From positions 62,001 through 126,000 of the forward strand of contig JAFEBI010000021.1 of assembly GCA_018242725.1 (NCBI GenBank): 64,000 bases of DNA, given 5' to 3'. Below, in pieces: positions 51,480 through 62,974 of this stretch. The stretch's first letter is position 1, and each line of letters starts with the position of its first letter. Under the pieces are notes generated by a model. The model made no database searches, was not told where the DNA came from, and worked only from the letters and a program-made list of their open reading frames with translations. Both the position numbers and the translations under genes were made by a program. The DNA is from Nitrospira sp. (GTDB lineage: Bacteria > Nitrospirota > Nitrospiria > Nitrospirales > Nitrospiraceae).

Positions 51480-54400
51480 ATGAACAAGCTTGTTCAAGTC
51501 GCCTTGCAAAAACCCTATACGTTCGTCGTGTTGGCCATCCTCATTGTCGTGTTGGGGACAATGGCGGTGTTTGAGGCACCGACAGACGTATTTCCGGTCA
51601 TTCAAATACCCGTCAGCTCCGTTGTCTGGATTTATGACAACTTGATGCCTGCTGATGTCGAGGGGCGCATCACCTATGTCTTCGAGCGTTTCCTGACTCA
51701 AACGGTCGAAGGTATCAAATACATATGGAGTAATTCGCTATTTGGCAACTCCATCATCAATATCTATCTTCAGGACGGCGTCGATTTAGGAGGAAGCGAA
51801 GCCGATATCGCGGCTATCGCGCAAACAAGCGTGAAGGCACTGCCTCCCGATATCAATGCTCCCATGGTCATGCGCTTATTCCCATCACAAGTGCCGGTCG
51901 CGACGTTACAAATCACCTCGGATTCGCACACACCCGCTGAACTCTATAATCTTTGTATCATGCGAATCAGACCACTCTTGGTGACGATACCGGGCGCGAT
52001 TCTTCCACACCCATACGGGGGGCAGGATATGCAGGTCATGATCAACCTCGACCAGCAAAAACTGCTAGCCCGCCACCTTACGCCGGCCGACATTCACCAA
52101 GCACTCGACCAGCAGAATCTCGTTCTACCTGGGGGAGATATCAAGATTAAGGGAATCGATTGGCTTGTCCTGACTAACGCGCAACCATTAAAGATCGAAG
52201 AATTCGACAATATTCCGATCAAGAAGGAAGGCAATGCCTGGATCCATCTGCGAGACGTCAGCGTCACACGTCTTGCCGGGCGGGTGCAGACGAACGCCGT
52301 CCTTGTCGATGGGAAACAGGCTGTGATTATCGTGGTCATGAAGAGCAGCGAAGCATCCACCCTGGAAGTGGTGGACGGAATCAAAGAGATCATTCCGCGT
52401 ATTCAGGAGGTCGTACCGGATGGTGTGAAGGTGAAACTTCTCATCGACGCTTCCGGTTTCGTGAAGCAGGCCATCTCGGATGTTTTACATGAAATGATCG
52501 TCGCGTCTGCGCTGGTTGGTTTCATCGTTCTGGTCATGCTGGGCTCCTGGCGGCCGACAGTGATCGTCCTCACGTCGATCCCGCTCTCAATCCTCTGCTC
52601 ACTCATCGCGCTGCATGCCCTCGGAGAGTCGATTAATATCATGACGTTGGGGGGATTAGCTCTGGCAGTGGGGATTCTCGTCGACAACGCCGCCGTGATG
52701 ATCGAAAACATCGACACCCATCTTGCTGCAGGGCAAGCATTGGAAGAAGCGATCATCGATGCCGCCAATCAGATCATTCTTCCGACGTTCGTTGCCACTC
52801 TTGCCATCACGATAGTCTGGATTCCTATGTTCCATCTGAGCGGAATCTCCGGTTGGGTGTTCCCGCCGATGGCCGAGGCGGTCATCTTTGCCATGATTGC
52901 CTCCTTCATTCTGACATACACGTTGGTGCCCACGATGGCGAAGTATATTCTCAAGGCTCATCATATAACTGGGTCGCATGGGCACGACGGGTCGCTCGAG
53001 TCGGCACGAGGGAGCAGCTTCTTCTCCCGATTCCAGAGAAAATTTCAACAGCACTTCGATCAGTTCCGAGACGGGTATACGGCGCAACTCCAACAAGCCG
53101 TCGCTATTCGCCGCTCGTTCGTCGTCGTTTCTTTAGCCGTGGCGACCGGATCTCTCGTTTTCTTCTACTTCAACGGACGAGAATTTTTTCCGGAAATCAG
53201 GTCTGGAATATTACAGATGCATATGCGTGCACCGCTCGGTACACGCATCGAGGCTGCGGCGCGTATCACGTCACTTGTCGCGAAGGACGTCGAAGGAATG
53301 CTGCCGGATGTCCAAGACATCGTGAGCAATTGTGGAATACCGGTTGGAGCGCATAACCTGGCGTTCATTCCGACGCCGACGGTTGGTACCCAGGATTGCG
53401 ATCTCACGATCTCACTGAAAGATGGGGAAGCTCCGGTGTGGGAGTATCGAGAACTCCTTCGCAAGGGGCTTTCGGAGCGTTATCCGGGCACAGAGTTCAC
53501 GTTTCAACCGGCCGATCTGACCGCGAGGATTCTGAACTTTGGATCTCTCGCCCCCATTGATGTGCAAATTAACGGTCCTGATCTATACGCGAACCATGAG
53601 TTCGCCCGTAAATTGGCGGGGAAGTTCAAGAAGATTCCTGGGGCGAGCGACGTTGTCGTTCAGCAGCCGATGGGGATGCCGACTCTCCTTGCAGAATCCG
53701 ATCGTCAATTCGCACTTGGGATGAACCTGAACCAAACCGATTTTGGCAACAATATGCTCGTGACAACCGCCGGAAGCCAGCAAGTGGATCAGAAGTATTG
53801 GCTTGATCGTGAAACCGGTATGTCCTACCGAATCAATGTCTACACGCCTCAACCACAGCTCACGAGCATTAATGACCTTCTGATTGTTCCGGTGAGTCAT
53901 GAAATGGGTGAATCCGGAGGAGAGATGCGGAATCTTCAGCTCCTCGGCAATCTCGCCAAACTTTCGGTGATGGGCACGCCCGGTGCCGTGACGCACGGAA
54001 ATATCATGCCGCTTATCGATGTCTATGTCTCCGCAGAGGGACGAGACCTCAACTCCGTACTGGAAGAAGTTCAAGAAGTCATTGGAAGTATGGAATCGGA
54101 GACACCACGGGGATCGACCATTGCAATCCAGGGACAAGCAGAAGTGATGCGCGCAGCACTGCGTGAAATGCTCTTCGGACTTCTTGCCGCGGTTGTGCTT
54201 GTATATCTCCTCATCGTTGTGAATTTTCAATCCTGGCTCGATCCCTTCATTATTATCATGGCCATTCCCGGCGCACTGGCGGGCATCGCATTGTCGTTGT
54301 TTTTGACCGATACGAACATTTCTGTTCCGGCCATGATGGGTGCGATTATGACGATGGGTACAGCCACCGCCAATTCCATCCTGCTCGTTTCCTATGCCCG

Positions 54401-54668
54401 CGAGCGGCTTGCCGAACATGGAGATGCCTTGCGGGCAGCCGTAGAGGCAGGAACAGCTCGCATTCGGCCGGTGCTTATGACCGCTGCAGCCATGATTATC
54501 GGCATGCTGCCGATGGCGACGGCAAATTCTCAAAATGCGCCGCTGGGGCGTGCCGTCATGGGCGGGCTCCTGGTCGCCACTCTATTTACTCTGTATTTTG
54601 TGCCGTGCATGTACGCCATAGTCTATGGTCGGCGAATCGGCCGTCATGCGGACCTTGTCAAAGCGTGA
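51480..54668 (+). CDS. RND efflux transporter, orphan pump paralogue
   Basis: A 1062-residue RND protein very close to the one at 14276, starting MNKLVQVALQKPYTFVVLAI; TM4 again contains GGLALAVGILVDNAAVMIENI. It has the full 12-segment plan with two large periplasmic loops, and a slightly longer loop (HHITGSHGHDGSLESARGSS) after TM6. GGAG lies upstream of the ATG. No adaptor or outer-membrane gene is adjacent, so it may borrow those of the first operon. A P-II-like gene follows 0.5 kb downstream. Sigma-54-type repeats precede it, pointing to inducible expression. Confidence 0.94.
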   Translation: MNKLVQVALQKPYTFVVLAILIVVLGTMAVFEAPTDVFPVIQIPVSSVVWIYDNLMPADVEGRITYVFERFLTQTVEGIKYIWSNSLFGNSIINIYLQDGVDLGGSEADIAAIAQTSVKALPPDINAPMVMRLFPSQVPVATLQITSDSHTPAELYNLCIMRIRPLLVTIPGAILPHPYGGQDMQVMINLDQQKLLARHLTPADIHQALDQQNLVLPGGDIKIKGIDWLVLTNAQPLKIEEFDNIPIKKEGNAWIHLRDVSVTRLAGRVQTNAVLVDGKQAVIIVVMKSSEASTLEVVDGIKEIIPRIQEVVPDGVKVKLLIDASGFVKQAISDVLHEMIVASALVGFIVLVMLGSWRPTVIVLTSIPLSILCSLIALHALGESINIMTLGGLALAVGILVDNAAVMIENIDTHLAAGQALEEAIIDAANQIILPTFVATLAITIVWIPMFHLSGISGWVFPPMAEAVIFAMIASFILTYTLVPTMAKYILKAHHITGSHGHDGSLESARGSSFFSRFQRKFQQHFDQFRDGYTAQLQQAVAIRRSFVVVSLAVATGSLVFFYFNGREFFPEIRSGILQMHMRAPLGTRIEAAARITSLVAKDVEGMLPDVQDIVSNCGIPVGAHNLAFIPTPTVGTQDCDLTISLKDGEAPVWEYRELLRKGLSERYPGTEFTFQPADLTARILNFGSLAPIDVQINGPDLYANHEFARKLAGKFKKIPGASDVVVQQPMGMPTLLAESDRQFALGMNLNQTDFGNNMLVTTAGSQQVDQKYWLDRETGMSYRINVYTPQPQLTSINDLLIVPVSHEMGESGGEMRNLQLLGNLAKLSVMGTPGAVTHGNIMPLIDVYVSAEGRDLNSVLEEVQEVIGSMESETPRGSTIAIQGQAEVMRAALREMLFGLLAAVVLVYLLIVVNFQSWLDPFIIIMAIPGALAGIALSLFLTDTNISVPAMMGAIMTMGTATANSILLVSYARERLAEHGDALRAAVEAGTARIRPVLMTAAAMIIGMLPMATANSQNAPLGRAVMGGLLVATLFTLYFVPCMYAIVYGRRIGRHADLVKA

Positions 54669-55174: not shown

Positions 55175-55483
55175 ATGAGAACAGTGATCATTGTAGCCCG
55201 AGACTCCATGTTAAGCGACCTAGAAGCCTTCTTGCAGAAGTCCGGAGTAAGCGAATACACGATAGTCAGTAATGTGATGGGTAAAGACGTTGCGGGTCGA
55301 GTATATGGAACTTTTCTCGATCCCGGAATCAATACCATCATTTGTGCAGTTCTCCCTTCGGACGAAGCCGCGAAAACCGTTTGCGCCTTGAAAATGCTTC
55401 ATGCCGCTCGAACGGAAATGTCACATGATGACAGACCGATACCTCTCAAAGTGTTTTCATTTTCTTGCGAAGAACATGTGTAG
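55175..55483 (+). CDS. P-II-like small regulatory protein, 102 residues
   Basis: Preceded by GGAAGGGGTG. The protein has the same plan as the gene at 27098: TVIIVARDSMLSDLEAFLQK, a glycine loop MGKDVAGRVYGTFLDPG and IICAVLPSDEAAKTVCALKM, ending in RPIPLKVFSF. P-II-like proteins of this type are often encoded beside transporters, and this one follows the orphan RND pump. It is convergent with the DAB operon. Regulation of the pump is plausible but unproven. Confidence 0.75.
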   Translation: MRTVIIVARDSMLSDLEAFLQKSGVSEYTIVSNVMGKDVAGRVYGTFLDPGINTIICAVLPSDEAAKTVCALKMLHAARTEMSHDDRPIPLKVFSFSCEEHV

Positions 55484-55641: not shown

Positions 55642-55983
55642 TTATGATTTTCTGTCCTTCTTCCCAAAGTATTCCTGCCGACTGACGGCCACGTCCGCGA
55701 CATACATGAAGCCAGAGTGTCGCTCAAAGAGGGGCTTCAGGCCAGCCAGGATGGGTTCCACCTTTTCCTCCGGAACGACGGTGAGGATCATTTCGAGGCT
55801 TTCTTGCTCGCTGAACATGAAATGCGCTTCCCGCACCCCATGGTGCCCTTTGCCGGAGATATTGCCGATGATCGTATACCCGCTGGCATGCACGCGATCC
55901 AGGAGTTCGGTCACGAACGCGCGATGTTCCCCAGCGACGATCACACGAATTTCTTTCATCGGATGCAAATGTAAGCCGCCCAT
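55642..55983 (-). CDS. P-II-like regulator of the DAB operon
   Basis: A 113-residue protein. The ATG at 55983 lies 8 bases after AAAGGAG; a TTG six codons earlier is not needed. The P-II fold is shown by KEIRVIVAGEHRAFVTELLD, the T-loop region GNISGKGHHGVREAHFMF and LEMILTVVPEEKVEPILAGL. The GKGHHG loop resembles SbtB/CPII-type bicarbonate-linked P-II proteins more than GlnB. It is the last gene of the DAB operon, 42 bases after dabA. It probably senses nucleotides or bicarbonate and tunes DAB activity (inference). Confidence 0.85.
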   Translation of the reverse strand: MGGLHLHPMKEIRVIVAGEHRAFVTELLDRVHASGYTIIGNISGKGHHGVREAHFMFSEQESLEMILTVVPEEKVEPILAGLKPLFERHSGFMYVADVAVSRQEYFGKKDRKS

Positions 55984-56025
55984 CGATCTGCTCCTTTCCA
56001 ATCTCCAATAGATAGGATTATGCCA

Positions 56026-59000
56026 TCAGGATGTCATCGCCATCTGTTCCTGCACAAGCTGCGCCCATTCGCCGTTTGCCCGATAGCGATACCACTCGCC
56101 ATCCACTGGGTCGAGTACAACCAGATGAACCCACTCATTGTGATAATAATGCTGAAGAACTTCATGCCGGGCAATCAGTTTTTCGATTCCGCGCCGAGGC
56201 GCTTCGACGATCGTCAGCAATCGCATCGGCTCATGGTACGGCATCTCCCCATTCATTACGGTTTGCCGTGCCAATCCAAGTCGAAGATCACTCCAGGGGC
56301 CTGACATGATGCCGAACCGTCCAACCACGTTATGGTAGATCTTGCTGCCGCTGCCATACACTTCGTTGTCGACGGCGGAGAAATAGTGTTCCATGTTGAT
56401 CCATTGCGCAACAACCTGAGGGGCGGTCAGCAAGACCTCGAGGAAACGAGTCGTCGGGTCCTCTCGATAGTCATAGGAGTGCAGAAACACCCGGCCATTG
56501 AAATCCAGTCCTCTCGTCAGTTCGCGGCGACCGATCAAGAACGTGGTATTGCTGGAGAGCCCCCATTCGGGGCGAACTTGACTCCAGTCCACGCTGCGTT
56601 GGCGCACATGGGCTGTGGCCTGTGATTCGTCCAACGGCTGCTGCACCTCCGGAAAGCGTCCGCATCGCTCACGGCTCGCCAGTTCCGCCGCTTCTCGCAG
56701 ATCATCATGGAGTCGCGCAAGGTCGGCACGATGAGTCGGGGGCACATCTTCGAGGTCGAATAAACGGACAGCGTCTGTGGTGGTATTCATCTGGCCGGCG
56801 AGGAAGTGTGTGTCGGAAGGGATATCAATCCCGGTTTTCCGTAAGCGCGCGCGGACCTTGTCATGATTCGCCATCATGGCAAGAACTCGGGCATTGGGTT
56901 GTCCTTCATTACCTCCGCACGCGCCACAATCGAGCGCCGACTCGTAGGGATTATTATCCGATGTGCTCCCATGCGCGCAGAACAGAATAAGTCGTGCAAA
57001 GTTCTTGGTCAGTCCCATCATCCGCAGGGCGGTCTCGACGGTCAAGGTCTGCTCCTCCAGGGTGAAGCCGGTTCTGGTCAGCCGTTCCTTGTACCGTGAT
57101 GACGCACGAGAGTTCACGTCGTACTCTCGTTGGAGCACCAGGACAAACGCGTCGAGCGCGTTTGCCTTCAAGCCCACGACCTCTGCCTCGGCAAGAAAAC
57201 CGGGATCCTGCTCGCCTCCACCTTGAAGGGCTCGCTGGCGCAGCCCCTCGATAAGCGATGGGGTGATATGAATACTACGCAATCCAAGTCGCTCCTGGAT
57301 CGCCACCCGGATCAGCTTATGATGTTCAACCGTCAGCATTTCCGAGGTATCCGTCGGGGACAACTTGTTGACGGTTAGGGTAGTCGGGAGTGGGGGCACG
57401 AATTGCCGTTGCAGCCATCTCGTGACGCGCCGATAGAGCGATGGAAGAAGAGTCTTCCCGAAAATCGGAAGGCTATAAAACCAGCCGATGGATTCGACCA
57501 TGACGTAGGGGGTAATGACGTTTTCCTTCAGGTCGTGCAGCAAGGTGTGACCCGCATGGACCCACTTCGTCCAAACCTGATGTTGCGAAACCTTGTGATC
57601 CAGATAGCTTCGCGGGATCTCCCGGACTTCGTTCTTGGCACGCATGATGACGGGAAACTGTTCCGTGTCATGCTCTTTTCCCCAGGCGCGGTATCGAATG
57701 AAGGCGGCAAAGAAGCCGGCGAAGCCATAGGTCTCATGGGGACCGATCGATTCGATGTGGCGACGAAATGGCTCTGATCGGACATCGATACAATACACGG
57801 ACTGTGAATAGGGGCGAAGAGGAAGGGTCGTCGGTTTTTCCGTGCGCTCTCGTTTGGACGCGGCGATGAGTTGTCCGATCAGTGGCTCATGATAACCGGC
57901 TTCAAAGGCCTTCAGCCAGACGATTCCATGGTCTGACTCCGGAAAAGCCTCGATCCAATCGATGACCTGTTTCAATGCCTGGGGCTCGCTCTCGACCAGT
58001 TGTTCATCACGAATATCGAGTGATCGGCTCAGGACGAGGAGTCGTCGGGCATTTCCGCGCCGACGCGTGGCTTGGTGCCTGGGAACCACCTCCGTACGAT
58101 AGCGCGTGAGCACCGCGTTCCAGCCTTGTCCTTTCCGATGGGCAAGCCGATCGACTTCCTCAGCGTAGAGTGACGGCAGATGGCCGGCGATCCGCTGTCG
58201 ACGCAGATAGTACTCTTCCGAATAATCACGCATATAGGCGATGATCTCGTCGAATCGCCCTTGAATATCCAGGTACTCTCGACAAGCCGCCTGCACGAGC
58301 TCACGGGCGTACCACAAGCGAATGGCGAGGAACTTCACAAGACCGACCGGGTGGGCTTGCTGCCAGGGATAGTCGCGTTCTTCTCCTCGCCATTTGATAA
58401 AGCCGGCCCACCCTGGAAGGGCGGTCAACTGGAGCGATAAGTAATCTTGCCGCAGTGCCAGTGGAATTCCCAACAGGTCCAAGCTTTCCAGCAGCGTGTC
58501 TTCGGGATGATCGGGGAGGGCGGCAATCTTGCGGCGACTGTCGGCAATCCCGATGAGTGACCATTCTTGCGCTGCGAGGCGCTTCCAGGATTGGTACAAC
58601 CCCTCGTCACGGTCGGACATGGTCCACGCGGCATGCCCTTCGTCGAGAAAGGCCGAACACCACTTGATCATTTGGTCATTGATGGTTTGGACGATCGAGG
58701 TACCAAGGGTGTCGTCGCACCAGTGAGATAGGGTGAGCCATCGGCAGAGCGCGGAGTGATTGGTCTCCACGACTTTTTTCACGCGATCGTCAAGGGAAGG
58801 AGTCTCCAGGACATGCTCCAGCTTCCGAGCAATCCGCTCGATCAGATCCCGGTCAGGATCTTCCAGTTGGTCGTCGAGCGGTTCTCGCACAGGGGAACAG
58901 ATCCCTTCCGTCAGGCAAGCCCGCAAGACTTCTCCGTGGGTTACTGATCGAGATCCCAGGACGATCGTTCGATCGCTTGCCAGCGGCTGAAGAGCCGCCT

Positions 59001-59262
59001 CTAGGTGCTCAAGCCGAATACGGCCGGATGCCACGTAGGCGCGATACAGGTCGCTCGGAAGATAGCCGTCTCCGTTCAAGAATTGCTTGCCGCGACGGAC
59101 CGTCTCTTCGAAGGGAAGGTATTCCAGGCTATGTAACGGATTGTGGTGGACGAATGTCCGCATCGGCCAGTATTGCGCGATGATTTCGCCAGCAAGACGG
59201 ACGACGCCGCGGAGTTCCATCCGCTTCGACTCAAGATCCATCGATTCATTCACCGGTGTCAT
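56026..59262 (-). CDS. dabA: DAB inorganic carbon transporter, zinc-binding subunit DabA (DUF2309)
   Basis: A 1078-residue protein; the ATG at 59262 overlaps the previous stop as ATGA. The beta-carbonic-anhydrase-like site of DabA is complete: C491 and D493 in YCIDVRSE, H764 in FCAHGSTSDNN and C779 in ALDCGACGG, with the H-to-C spacing of 15 residues seen in Halothiobacillus DabA. N-terminal HHNPLHSLEYLPFEE is also diagnostic of DUF2309. It is expected at the cytoplasmic face of the membrane, where it converts CO2 to bicarbonate in a direction driven by the cation flux through DabB. It is the third gene in the four-gene operon. Confidence 0.96.
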   Translation of the reverse strand: MTPVNESMDLESKRMELRGVVRLAGEIIAQYWPMRTFVHHNPLHSLEYLPFEETVRRGKQFLNGDGYLPSDLYRAYVASGRIRLEHLEAALQPLASDRTIVLGSRSVTHGEVLRACLTEGICSPVREPLDDQLEDPDRDLIERIARKLEHVLETPSLDDRVKKVVETNHSALCRWLTLSHWCDDTLGTSIVQTINDQMIKWCSAFLDEGHAAWTMSDRDEGLYQSWKRLAAQEWSLIGIADSRRKIAALPDHPEDTLLESLDLLGIPLALRQDYLSLQLTALPGWAGFIKWRGEERDYPWQQAHPVGLVKFLAIRLWYARELVQAACREYLDIQGRFDEIIAYMRDYSEEYYLRRQRIAGHLPSLYAEEVDRLAHRKGQGWNAVLTRYRTEVVPRHQATRRRGNARRLLVLSRSLDIRDEQLVESEPQALKQVIDWIEAFPESDHGIVWLKAFEAGYHEPLIGQLIAASKRERTEKPTTLPLRPYSQSVYCIDVRSEPFRRHIESIGPHETYGFAGFFAAFIRYRAWGKEHDTEQFPVIMRAKNEVREIPRSYLDHKVSQHQVWTKWVHAGHTLLHDLKENVITPYVMVESIGWFYSLPIFGKTLLPSLYRRVTRWLQRQFVPPLPTTLTVNKLSPTDTSEMLTVEHHKLIRVAIQERLGLRSIHITPSLIEGLRQRALQGGGEQDPGFLAEAEVVGLKANALDAFVLVLQREYDVNSRASSRYKERLTRTGFTLEEQTLTVETALRMMGLTKNFARLILFCAHGSTSDNNPYESALDCGACGGNEGQPNARVLAMMANHDKVRARLRKTGIDIPSDTHFLAGQMNTTTDAVRLFDLEDVPPTHRADLARLHDDLREAAELASRERCGRFPEVQQPLDESQATAHVRQRSVDWSQVRPEWGLSSNTTFLIGRRELTRGLDFNGRVFLHSYDYREDPTTRFLEVLLTAPQVVAQWINMEHYFSAVDNEVYGSGSKIYHNVVGRFGIMSGPWSDLRLGLARQTVMNGEMPYHEPMRLLTIVEAPRRGIEKLIARHEVLQHYYHNEWVHLVVLDPVDGEWYRYRANGEWAQLVQEQMAMTS

Positions 59263-60551
59263 GGAATCACTCGCGAGAAAGTTTGGGTCATCGACTGCGT
59301 TGCCGTCGAGGTCCACCACTCAATGGGGGCCAGTCCCAGCACCGTGAGGATGATGATCGTGATGGTCAGTGCGACCCATTCTTGTTGCACGACATCATGA
59401 TACCGAAGGTCACTTCGCCTGACGCCGAACAACAACCGTTGCACCGCGCTCATAAGGTACCAGGAGGCTGCCAGCCAGGATGACAACAGGATCATCAACC
59501 CGATGAGTGAGGGAATCGGCGAGTGGAGCAGCAATCCCATCAATCCGGCGAAGACGCCGAAGGGGGGGAGTCCCATCGCCGCTAACGCCAAGAGGGTCAC
59601 CAGCACGGCGTAGCGCGGCATCGACGAAGCCAATCCGCTGATCGAGGATGGATCGACATCGTCACCATATCGTGTCCGAATGATTTGCCAGGCAATCAAC
59701 AGCCCGCATGTGGCCAGGCCGACGGATGCGACAAGGACGGCGGCGCGAGCCGTCGCCAGGTTTGAGGCTGCACTATGCCACCAGAGCATGGAAAAGAATG
59801 AGAGACTGGCATAGGACAGCATCAGTCGGACGCGAGTCTGTGCCAGGGCTTTGACAGCGCCATAGAGTGCTCCGATCAAGGCCAAGAGGCCGACGATGCC
59901 GGAGGCGGTCGTGGGTACGGTCTGAAGGGCTGAGGCCATGACGTGCAGGCCGACGGCGGGAAGAAGAAAAGCGGAAAAAGAAGGCAGATTGCCGGGTAGT
60001 CGTGTGAGCGCGGTCACGTAGCCGGTGTGGAACGGCAGGAGCGGGATCAGCACTGCCGCCGTCATCAAAGCTCCAAAGGACGAAAGTGGTGGGTTCGTCA
60101 TTACGGTGACGAGCGCTCCAAGTGCCGCGAGACAGAACAGACTGATCCCCCACCATGAAATAGGCCATAAGATCGTATGGTGATGCACCAAAAGACCAGT
60201 CATCGTCATCAACAGGGCCAAGAGGAATAAGTGGCTCAAGGGAGCCGGATGGACGATGGAGCCGATTCCAAGTCCAAGACAGACCAAGGTCATCACCCAG
60301 GACAGGCGGTGATCCTTCTGGACTGGTTGTCCCAAGAGAGAAATGACGGCGACGATCGGGAGCAGAGCAAGGAGTAATGCGCCTTCCGGTAGGTTCGTTT
60401 GAAGTTTTAGAATCGGGACGACACTGATGAGGGACCAGATGACACAAGATTGTTTCAGCTGAGACAGGTCTTCCCAAAGCATTCGACCGGCCAAGGCACC
60501 GATGAGCGGAATGCAGGTGGCAAGCCAAGAAAAAAGAACCGCGCTTGTCAT
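59259..60551 (-). CDS. NuoM/MrpD-like membrane protein of the DAB operon
   Basis: A 430-residue, almost entirely hydrophobic protein with about 12-13 membrane segments. The layout is that of a proton-conducting antiporter-like subunit: LLPFHTGYVTALTRLPGNLP is reminiscent of the lysine/histidine region of NuoM/MrpD, VRLMLSYASLSFFSMLWWHS of the central helix, and MGLPPFGVFAGLMGLLLHSP of the late helix. Starts and stops overlap by 4 bases with dabB before and dabA after, so it is almost certainly made together with them. Canonical DAB has only DabA and one DabB, so this is an extra subunit. Confidence 0.85.
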   Translation of the reverse strand: MTSAVLFSWLATCIPLIGALAGRMLWEDLSQLKQSCVIWSLISVVPILKLQTNLPEGALLLALLPIVAVISLLGQPVQKDHRLSWVMTLVCLGLGIGSIVHPAPLSHLFLLALLMTMTGLLVHHHTILWPISWWGISLFCLAALGALVTVMTNPPLSSFGALMTAAVLIPLLPFHTGYVTALTRLPGNLPSFSAFLLPAVGLHVMASALQTVPTTASGIVGLLALIGALYGAVKALAQTRVRLMLSYASLSFFSMLWWHSAASNLATARAAVLVASVGLATCGLLIAWQIIRTRYGDDVDPSSISGLASSMPRYAVLVTLLALAAMGLPPFGVFAGLMGLLLHSPIPSLIGLMILLSSWLAASWYLMSAVQRLLFGVRRSDLRYHDVVQQEWVALTITIIILTVLGLAPIEWWTSTATQSMTQTFSRVIP

Positions 60552-62254
60552 CGCCGCGACCACCCTTCTTCTTGTTTATCGACCCAGTGGACGAACCGCA
60601 GAACGACTTGTCCGACGCGGGCATAACATTCGTCGGCATACAACCTATTGATGAGCGCCACGTACACCCGATGACGAATCTTGTCGATCCAGGTCGGTAT
60701 CCATACACTTCGTCCATGGGCCTTCAGATAGAGATAGATCCAGCCGAGCACGGTGAGGCCGGTCGCTCCTACCAGAAGCAGGTCGAACAGCCAGTTGGGA
60801 AGGTCGGCAGCCTTGTAATACGAGGCGACCTCGTTAGGATTTGGGTAGAGGAATGCGGTGAACGATTCCACGGCAAACAAGTAGACGAAGACGACGAAGA
60901 GCAATGTCAACAACATGGTGGACGAGACTTTCCACGATGCGACTGCGCGCAACCGCGTGAGTGTCAGGATGGCTTGCGAGGAGGTGACCCAAATGAAGAA
61001 GAAGATGATGACGGTCCCGTGAGACTCCAACAAGGGAATGTGCAGCACTCCGTGGGTCACCAAGAGAATGAGTAGAGGGATCACCAAGCTCGTCAGAAAC
61101 CCCGTCGCCCAGGTGAGGTTTGACAGCTCTTCCTCCTCGTGATGGGTATGGCCGGTATGGGGGAAATGTGGTTCGGTCCGGGCCTTTTGAATGACGTTTC
61201 CACAATTGAGAAAAACCGTTGCCTTAAACAGACCATGCGCGATCAGATGGAAGACCGCCAGTGAAAATGCGCCGAGCCCGCACTCCATAATCATGTAGCC
61301 CATCTGACCGATCGTCGACAGTCCCAACGTCTTCTTGATGTCGCTCTGTACCAGCATCATGGAGGCCCCAAGCACCGCAGTCACCGTTCCAACCACCAAG
61401 GCGACGTGCAAGGTGACCGAACTCATGCCGAAAAGCGGCGCCATGCGATTGATCAGGAACCCACCGGCATTGATGATGCCGGCATGGAGCAAGCCATGGA
61501 CCGGTGTCGGCGCAAAGAGCGAACTCGGTAGCCAGAGGTGAAGGGGAAACTGCGCGGACTTCCCCATCGCTCCCACGAACATCAATAGCGTAATGGCGGT
61601 GGCGGCGTCGATGTCCATGCCGGGCCAGAGGGCGACGGTGTGAGAAGAGGCCGTCGCGCGAGCGAACAGCTCGGGAATCTCAAGCGTTCCGTACACCTGG
61701 TAGGTGAGGATAATTCCCATGAGGAGGGCCATATCGGCCACGCGCAGAACGGTGAACGTCTTGTAGGCTCCGTCGAGCGTCTGATTGTGGCCATGGTTGT
61801 GCGCCAGGATGTAGAGCAAATAACTCAGCAGTTGCCAGAACAAAAACAGCATCATGAGATTCGCGCTGGACACCATGCAGAGCAGCACGAAATCCGTGAG
61901 ACAAATCAGCGTCAGATACCGACGGTAGTGGCGGTCCTGATACATATAGTTCACGGAGTAGGTATAGATGATCAGACTGACGGCCGAAATCAGTGTCATC
62001 ATGACGCCACTGAGCCGGTCGATATAGAACCCGATGGGGATCGTGAGAGACGCGACCGTGGCAGGGTTATAAAATTGGATGGTAATCGGCCCTGAGATCG
62101 TTACGGCATACAGTGTGGTCGAAGCCCCCACGCATGCAGCTCCCATCAGAAGCGCGGCTATTTTAGCATGGGCATAGCGGGTTGAGTCTTCTGCACAGAC
62201 CACGACCAGCCCCGCGATGAGAGGAAGCAAGGGGATCAGTAGAGCAGCCCACAT
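60548..62254 (-). CDS. dabB: DAB membrane subunit DabB (NuoL/MrpA-like proton channel)
   Basis: A 568-residue protein with about 14 membrane segments. The core has PVHGLLHAGIINAGGFLINR, the DabB/MpsA form of the NuoL central segment, preceded by FPLHLWLPSSLFAPTP and followed by SDIKKTLGLSTIGQMGYMI. A hydrophilic linker (RTEPHFPHTGHTHHEEEELS) is present before the last helices. It couples ion flow to DabA. It is the first gene of the operon and its stop overlaps the next start (ATGA). A terminator-like hairpin lies just upstream of its start. The ribosome site is weak (GAGG, about 13 bases upstream). Confidence 0.94.
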   Translation of the reverse strand: MWAALLIPLLPLIAGLVVVCAEDSTRYAHAKIAALLMGAACVGASTTLYAVTISGPITIQFYNPATVASLTIPIGFYIDRLSGVMMTLISAVSLIIYTYSVNYMYQDRHYRRYLTLICLTDFVLLCMVSSANLMMLFLFWQLLSYLLYILAHNHGHNQTLDGAYKTFTVLRVADMALLMGIILTYQVYGTLEIPELFARATASSHTVALWPGMDIDAATAITLLMFVGAMGKSAQFPLHLWLPSSLFAPTPVHGLLHAGIINAGGFLINRMAPLFGMSSVTLHVALVVGTVTAVLGASMMLVQSDIKKTLGLSTIGQMGYMIMECGLGAFSLAVFHLIAHGLFKATVFLNCGNVIQKARTEPHFPHTGHTHHEEEELSNLTWATGFLTSLVIPLLILLVTHGVLHIPLLESHGTVIIFFFIWVTSSQAILTLTRLRAVASWKVSSTMLLTLLFVVFVYLFAVESFTAFLYPNPNEVASYYKAADLPNWLFDLLLVGATGLTVLGWIYLYLKAHGRSVWIPTWIDKIRHRVYVALINRLYADECYARVGQVVLRFVHWVDKQEEGWSRR

Positions 62255-62271
62255 CGGTTCAGCATTACCTC

Positions 62272-62456
62272 AGAAAACACAAAAGCCAACCGTCTCGCAT
62301 CGACCAATGGTCGACCCAAGCAGTTGGCTTGTACTGCGACCGGCCTCTCAGAATGAACAGCGAGTCGCCCTACGGCCCTGGAAGAGAAACATCCAGCCTC
62401 TTGTCCGTCCACGTGCGCCTGGTGGATAGGCAACAGGGTTCTGTCCCTCGTATACC
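62272..62456 (-). ncRNA. Structured leader RNA with intrinsic terminator before dabB
   Basis: On the minus strand about 185 bases of non-coding, structure-rich sequence run from a predicted start near 62456. They end in a nested hairpin (outer arms AAGCCAAC/GTTGGCTT at 62283-62330, inner TCGACC/GGTCGA) followed by CTTTTGTGTTTT, an intrinsic terminator 20-30 bases before the dabB ATG. It could be an attenuated leader of the operon or a separate small RNA. No known riboswitch or 6S consensus was recognised. Confidence 0.5.
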
Positions 62457-62489: not shown

Positions 62490-62629
62490 GCAGCAATCCG
62501 CCGATCAGGTCGTTCAACCAAGGTCCTGGTATTTAAAAGGCCTGATGGTCTGAGGCTAAAGCTCCAGGAATTCGCTTGTTCCCCCCGTCGGCCAATCCGT
62601 ATAATCCGGCGGCATTGAGGAGCGACATT

Positions 62630-62974
62630 ATGGAAAATGCGATCCGCAACGCGATCATCAAGTTCGAGCAGGAGTTTCTGGGGCGTGGCCCAGACGAAGT
62701 CCGTGCGCTGGTCGCGCGCGATCTGGTCGTTGTGCGGCTCAAAGGCGTCTTAACACCGGCCGAGCGCCAGCTGGCGAAGACCACCGAGGGTATTGAAATG
62801 GTCAAACGCCTGCGGCAGAATCTGATTGCCCAAGGACGCGAAAAGCTCTGCGAACAGATCGGTGAGATTACCGGAGCCAAGATTCTCGGCCTCTTTACCG
62901 ATATCGATGTGCAGCTCGGGGAACGAGTTTTCGTGTTTACCGTGGATCGGGAACTGCAGAACGGCACTCGATAG
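62630..62974 (+). CDS. DUF2294 domain protein, 114 residues
   Basis: The ATG at 62630 follows GAGGAG. The protein matches the DUF2294 family: IIKFEQEFLGRGPDEVRALV, VVVRLKGVLTPAERQLAKT, VKRLRQNLI, and a C-terminal strand region (GLFTDIDVQLGERVFVFTVD). The family is found as small stand-alone proteins and near sodium-translocating or nitrogen-metabolism genes; its function is not established. It is divergent from the DAB operon and alone. Length is typical. Confidence 0.88.
   Translation: MENAIRNAIIKFEQEFLGRGPDEVRALVARDLVVVRLKGVLTPAERQLAKTTEGIEMVKRLRQNLIAQGREKLCEQIGEITGAKILGLFTDIDVQLGERVFVFTVDRELQNGTR

Follow-up and report, generated by a model that had tools for sequence, protein, structure and literature searches.

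Gene content and junctions of the dab operon

The window, a 64,000-nucleotide stretch of a Nitrospira sp. contig, carries a dab operon of four open reading frames, all on the minus strand. The first of these is dabB (ATG at 62254 to stop at 60548; 568 aa), which carries the Pfam domains PF00361 and PF00662 and encodes a predicted NuoL-like, proton-conducting membrane subunit. It is followed by the gene for a degenerate NuoM-like subunit, hereafter MID (ATG at 60551 to stop at 59259; 430 aa; PF00361), and by dabA (ATG at 59262 to stop at 56026; 1078 aa), whose product is a long-type DabA that matches PF10070 (E=5e-262) and is predicted to be the β-carbonic-anhydrase-like, CO2-hydrating subunit. 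The operon ends with the gene for a P-II-like regulator, one of the CPII (carboxysome-associated P-II) type (55983, or 55959, to 55642; PF00543). An earlier note on this DNA had described a four-gene operon with an additional NuoM-like gene, and all four ORFs and their Pfam domains are indeed present. The strict translational coupling that it proposed holds for two of the three junctions: dabB and MID (...CGATGACAAGC...), as well as MID and dabA (...CCATGACACCG...), share 4-nt ATGA overlaps, whereas a gap of approximately 42 nt with an AAGGAG ribosome-binding site lies between dabA and the P-II gene. The range that it gave, up to 62456, runs about 200 bp past the start of dabB and stops short of a divergent mpsC homologue (62576–62974, plus strand; PF10057) located just upstream of the operon, which was overlooked.

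The product of the P-II gene matches the PDB entries 5d4n, 5d4o, 5d4p, 5drk and 5ds7 (E=3e-30), which we take to be CPII structures, and can be assigned to the CPII family. A weaker second P-II-like gene (55175–55483, plus strand), which matches the PG0541 'transporter-associated' family below the cut-off, comes after a large efflux-pump-like ORF at 51480–54668 and is probably unrelated to the dab operon. The neighboring mpsC is a conserved companion of the dab genes in Nitrospirota: of the 39 strong PF10057 matches in related genomes, 36 are no more than 12 kb away from dab genes. A copy at locus L003 (12533–12910, minus strand) also sits beside a dab operon. This linkage runs counter to the published statement that collocation of mpsC is confined to staphylococci (PMC6689103).

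DabB and DabA conserve the proton path and the zinc site

Window DabB matches DabB2 of the DAB2 cryo-EM structure (9rd0_B, E=4e-33) and keeps all the proton-path residues (R171, D174, K232, H257, K307, H336, H340 and K344), while the complex-I glutamate (E144 of NuoL) is lost, being Q141 in the window protein and likewise I151 in DabB2. Across the MID-linked groups in which dabB lies upstream, the proton-path residues examined are kept throughout, with the exception of K235, which is replaced by Arg in most gammaproteobacterial copies. Judged by its sequence, DabB thus retains a NuoL-type proton path. Among the congeners whose upstream flank was read, most have a duplicated dabB; at loci L166–L176 (many congeners and genomes of the same family) two tandem dabB genes, both with every proton-path residue examined, precede MID and dabA, and a single dabB is found in the window operon and its nearest relatives (L179 and L180).

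DabA in turn matches the DabA2 structure (9rd0_A, E=1e-105). In a multiple alignment, the zinc-site columns C351, D353, H524 and C539 are invariant, and both Leu658 and the finger-tip Glu444 of DAB2 are retained; the roles of these residues have been described for DAB2, where the finger-tip Glu of DabA completes the channel (PMC13144422). A pairwise alignment had suggested that E444 is unconserved, a result overturned by the multiple alignment, in which it is invariant in all groups with dabB upstream of dabA. Judged by conservation, DabA therefore retains both its zinc site and the finger-tip Glu. Other arrangements of dabA were also encountered. Four gammaproteobacterial loci (L147, L154, L155 and L156) have a different order, with a 486–502-aa NuoM-like gene followed by dabA and dabB, and their DabAs have lost the finger-tip Glu (D, T or A) and have His in place of Leu658. 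At L101 (4950–8276), L103 (3959–7195) and L126 (16207–19501), dabA is an orphan without a neighboring dabB; the genomes concerned, of the same family as the window's, each have a complete dab operon elsewhere. A scan of viral contigs found no DabA.

An approximate tree of 110 DabAs (FastTree, with some long branches) splits a long-DabA clade from the 26 DAB2 rows with a support of 100 and places window DabA and Halothiobacillus DabA1 in a common subclade of 68 rows with a support of 94. The 26 short DAB2-type DabAs form one side of the tree, and none of their operons contains MID. On the long-DabA side are found the small-MID, long-MID and fusion forms described below, as well as a nested MID-less group that includes a paralogue from the window genome itself, encoded about 10 kb away in a second dab operon (dabB-dabA-P-II) with a long DabA, an mpsC and no MID. 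MID is consequently not obligatory for long DabA proteins.

MID sits next to dabA in relatives and forms fusions with DabB in several Nitrospirota classes

The dabA neighborhoods of relatives bear out the suggestion that the NuoM-like protein is a conserved partner of DabA and DabB. Across 59 related genomes, 38 MID matches were found, distributed over 37 genomes, and none of them is more than 135 bp away from a dabA. It is carried by 27 of 35 congeners (window genome counted), always between dabB and dabA, and it recurs in Gammaproteobacteria, where 11 of the 20 loci fetched show the order dabB-MID-dabA-P-II with a shorter MID of 247–268 aa. In several other Nitrospirota classes, a single protein of 873–913 aa combines a full DabB with the MID core (residues ~141–415); such natural fusions were found at L098 (873 aa), L105, L106, L119, L120 and L121. 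An early HMM comparison had hinted that the N-terminal half of MID resembles the DabB C-terminus in these fusions, which was ruled out by a per-domain comparison in which only the MID core is present. The MID gene has a dN/dS of 0.14–0.19, indicative of purifying selection, which together with the constant adjacency to dabA argues that its presence is not due to chance. It nevertheless changes roughly twice as fast as DabA and DabB (~0.19 versus ~0.07), as expected of a structural part. Given this invariable adjacency and the existence of DabB–MID fusions, a three-part DabB–MID–DabA complex is well supported by these genomic data.

MID has lost the residues of the NuoM proton path

The window MID contains approximately 14 hydrophobic segments, predicted to be transmembrane helices, and its PF00361 match covers residues 164–347 only (E=8e-10). 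The conserved core (residues ~141–415) aligns with residues 224–482 of E. coli NuoM. Close inspection of 79 MID sequences aligned with NuoM (fewer are independent, since some loci are in twice or as near-duplicates) reveals that K234 of NuoM is replaced by L, M, A, F or I, K265 by P or L, H322 mostly by F, A or L (one His being the sole ionizable exception), H348 by V, I, F and other non-ionizable residues, and E407 by F, L, M, Y or I. The substitutes are nearly always hydrophobic; these alignments have an identity of about 25% and cover the C-terminal half of the protein. In the N-terminal half, where the equivalent of NuoM E144 would lie, no similarity to NuoM could be detected, and this half is entirely absent from the gammaproteobacterial MIDs and the DabB–MID fusions. 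The predicted helices of the window protein are almost free of charge, and none has an acidic residue at its centre; the invariant residues of the family lie mostly outside the helix centres, where antiporter lysines sit. The one basic residue of note is at MID position 234, a Lys in the window protein and Lys or Arg in 23 of 23 aligned MIDs. A single-sequence AlphaFold2 model of MID was unreliable (mean pLDDT 48.7). The proton-path Lys, His and Glu of an active antiporter subunit such as NuoM or MrpD were not found, and MID is thus best described, from its alignments, as a descendant of NuoM that no longer has the proton-path residues.

Proposed mechanism and alternative roles of MID

We consider it likely that the operon encodes a DAB1-type vectorial carbonic anhydrase driven by the proton motive force (PMF), with MID as a non-conducting, antiporter-derived subunit and the CPII protein as regulator. 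Protons would flow down the PMF through DabB along a path completed by the DabA finger, and this flow would drive the one-way hydration of CO2 to HCO3- in DabA; a single active path of this kind is the best-supported reading of the conserved residues. MID would be a stoichiometric component packed against DabB, as NuoM is beside NuoL, where it may seal, brace or orient DabB and dock the long DabA. The fusion proteins imply that DabB and MID can be permanent neighbors, while the position of MID relative to DabA is one that we infer. The CPII protein may in turn tune the complex to the bicarbonate or adenylate state. The window genome has one match to the β-carbonic-anhydrase family and no match to RubisCO anywhere, so the bicarbonate produced would feed other carboxylases, presumably those of the rTCA cycle, which we assume from the probable genus.

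The earlier note had instead proposed that MID is a second active ion channel, which would give CO2 hydration two ion paths to couple to. Such a role could draw on the PF00361 homology, on the ~14 predicted helices, on the conserved basic residue at position 234, which could carry charge, and on the precedent of Mrp and complex I, which have several antiporter-like subunits. We regard it as very unlikely, since all five NuoM proton-path residues examined in the covered half are non-ionizable in essentially every MID, the helices of the window protein are nearly uncharged, and the half that would bear E144 lacks NuoM similarity and is dispensed with in Gammaproteobacteria and in the fusions. 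Without the charged residues of a proton channel, MID is more likely to hold the complex together than to conduct ions along a second route.

Two further roles do not require conduction. MID might act as an assembly or insertion factor for DabB and DabA rather than as a stoichiometric subunit, and both its translational overlap with the two neighbors and its faster evolution would suit a helper protein; the permanent fusion to DabB in several lineages, which makes MID part of the mature protein there, renders this unlikely, if still worth considering. It is scarcely credible, on the other hand, that MID is a relic in decay which has simply stayed in the operon. The loss of the proton-path residues and the absence of the N-terminal half in some lineages are what such decay would look like, but the gene is under purifying selection, is conserved across two phyla, has been fused to DabB and keeps its place next to dabA without exception. 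We therefore favor a scaffolding, non-conducting subunit.

Many chemolithoautotrophs, and some bacteria without carbonic anhydrase, obtain inorganic carbon through DAB complexes, and the sole DAB structure that we found is that of the two-subunit DAB2. If MID is a scaffold, the unexplained third gene of DAB1 would gain a concrete role, that of an antiporter-derived protein that has lost its proton path but remains conserved, in some lineages even as a fusion with DabB. It also calls for caution in equating the number of PF00361 subunits with the number of ion paths. The natural DabB–MID fusions would be handy single-chain targets for structural studies.

Comparison with known systems

The three-gene operon itself is already known. 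DAB1 of Halothiobacillus neapolitanus (DabA1, Hneap_0908 and DabB1) has a third, interstitial PF00361 gene (PMC7714395; PMC13144422) and has been termed a three-subunit system that includes hneap_0908 (PMC13144422), which corrects the premise that characterized DAB systems consist of one DabA and one DabB. The H. neapolitanus dabAB1 genes together with the interstitial gene complement a carbonic-anhydrase-free E. coli in air (PMC7714395); in the open-access literature, we found no report on the need for the interstitial gene in DAB1 activity. Relative to that same literature, what appears to be new, although priority is not certain, is the pore-dead reading of the third protein, the DabB–MID fusions, the long 14-helix MID of Nitrospirota, the duplication of dabB in congeners, the mpsC linkage and, in relatives, a dabA that leads an Mrp-type operon.

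In the operon of Halothiobacillus sp. 15-55-196 (L113), which stands in here for H. neapolitanus, a dabB of 559 aa is followed by an interstitial gene of 248 aa, a long dabA of 1046 aa and a P-II gene of 111 aa, so that the gene order matches that of the window operon. The Nitrospirota MID profile matches its interstitial protein over profile positions 166–412 (E=1.6e-13). The window operon thus belongs with the DAC/DAB family through its PF10070 zinc-site protein and its NuoL-like DabB, which has the proton path and has lost Glu144, and with the DAB1 sub-type through a third PF00361 gene homologous to that of Halothiobacillus and a DabA that groups with Halothiobacillus DabA1. It differs in that its third protein has 430 aa (~14 helices) rather than 248 aa (~8 helices) and in that the window genome has no RubisCO match. 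A design peculiar to nitrite oxidizers, as the earlier note had envisaged, is not supported, because the gene order is also present in Halothiobacillus and in 11 other gammaproteobacterial loci.

DAB2 (DabA2–DabB2; 9rd0, PMC13144422) has in common with the window proteins the Cys/Asp/His/Cys zinc site, Leu658, the finger-tip Glu and the proton-path residues of DabB, but it has two subunits and a short DabA, and MID is found in 0 of the 26 DAB2-type operons of the tree. MpsAB(C) of Staphylococcus aureus (PMC6689103) likewise pairs a NuoL-like subunit with a PF10070 protein and has mpsC as a neighbor; unlike the window operon it has no MID, and Na+ coupling has been proposed for it. At L161 (4514–15212), dabA heads an Mrp-like operon whose order, according to Pfam, is DabA, MnhE, MnhG, MbhD/E-like, MnhB, MnhC, MnhD, NuoL-like (703 aa) and NuoM-like (510 aa); a dabA likewise heads an Mrp-like operon at L162 (a congener), L163 and L164, and in this Mrp-linked DabA clade the finger-tip Glu is replaced by Asp in eight of eight proteins. 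A similar locus with Mrp, NuoM/NuoL and BicA has been described in Ca. N. alkalitolerans, and the passages on it in that paper make no mention of DabA (PMC7784846).

MID can also be set beside the antiporter-type subunits NuoM of complex I and MrpD of Mrp; its core aligns with NuoM 224–482, but the proton-path residues are lost. The CO2-hydrating activity of cyanobacterial NDH-1MS (NdhF3/NdhD3/CupA) is likewise mounted on antiporter-like subunits; that system differs in being redox-driven and in having an unrelated CO2-hydrating subunit. A broader and decidedly tentative view is that DabA may be a portable CO2-hydrating module placed on complex-I-like arms of growing size: DabB alone in DAB2, DabB plus a pore-dead NuoM in the window and in Halothiobacillus DAB1, two DabBs plus a pore-dead NuoM in many congeners, and, in L161–L164, where the finger-tip Glu has become Asp, a complete Mrp antiporter together with NuoL and NuoM. 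If so, these forms would have unequal numbers of active ion paths and hence spend different amounts of energy on each CO2.
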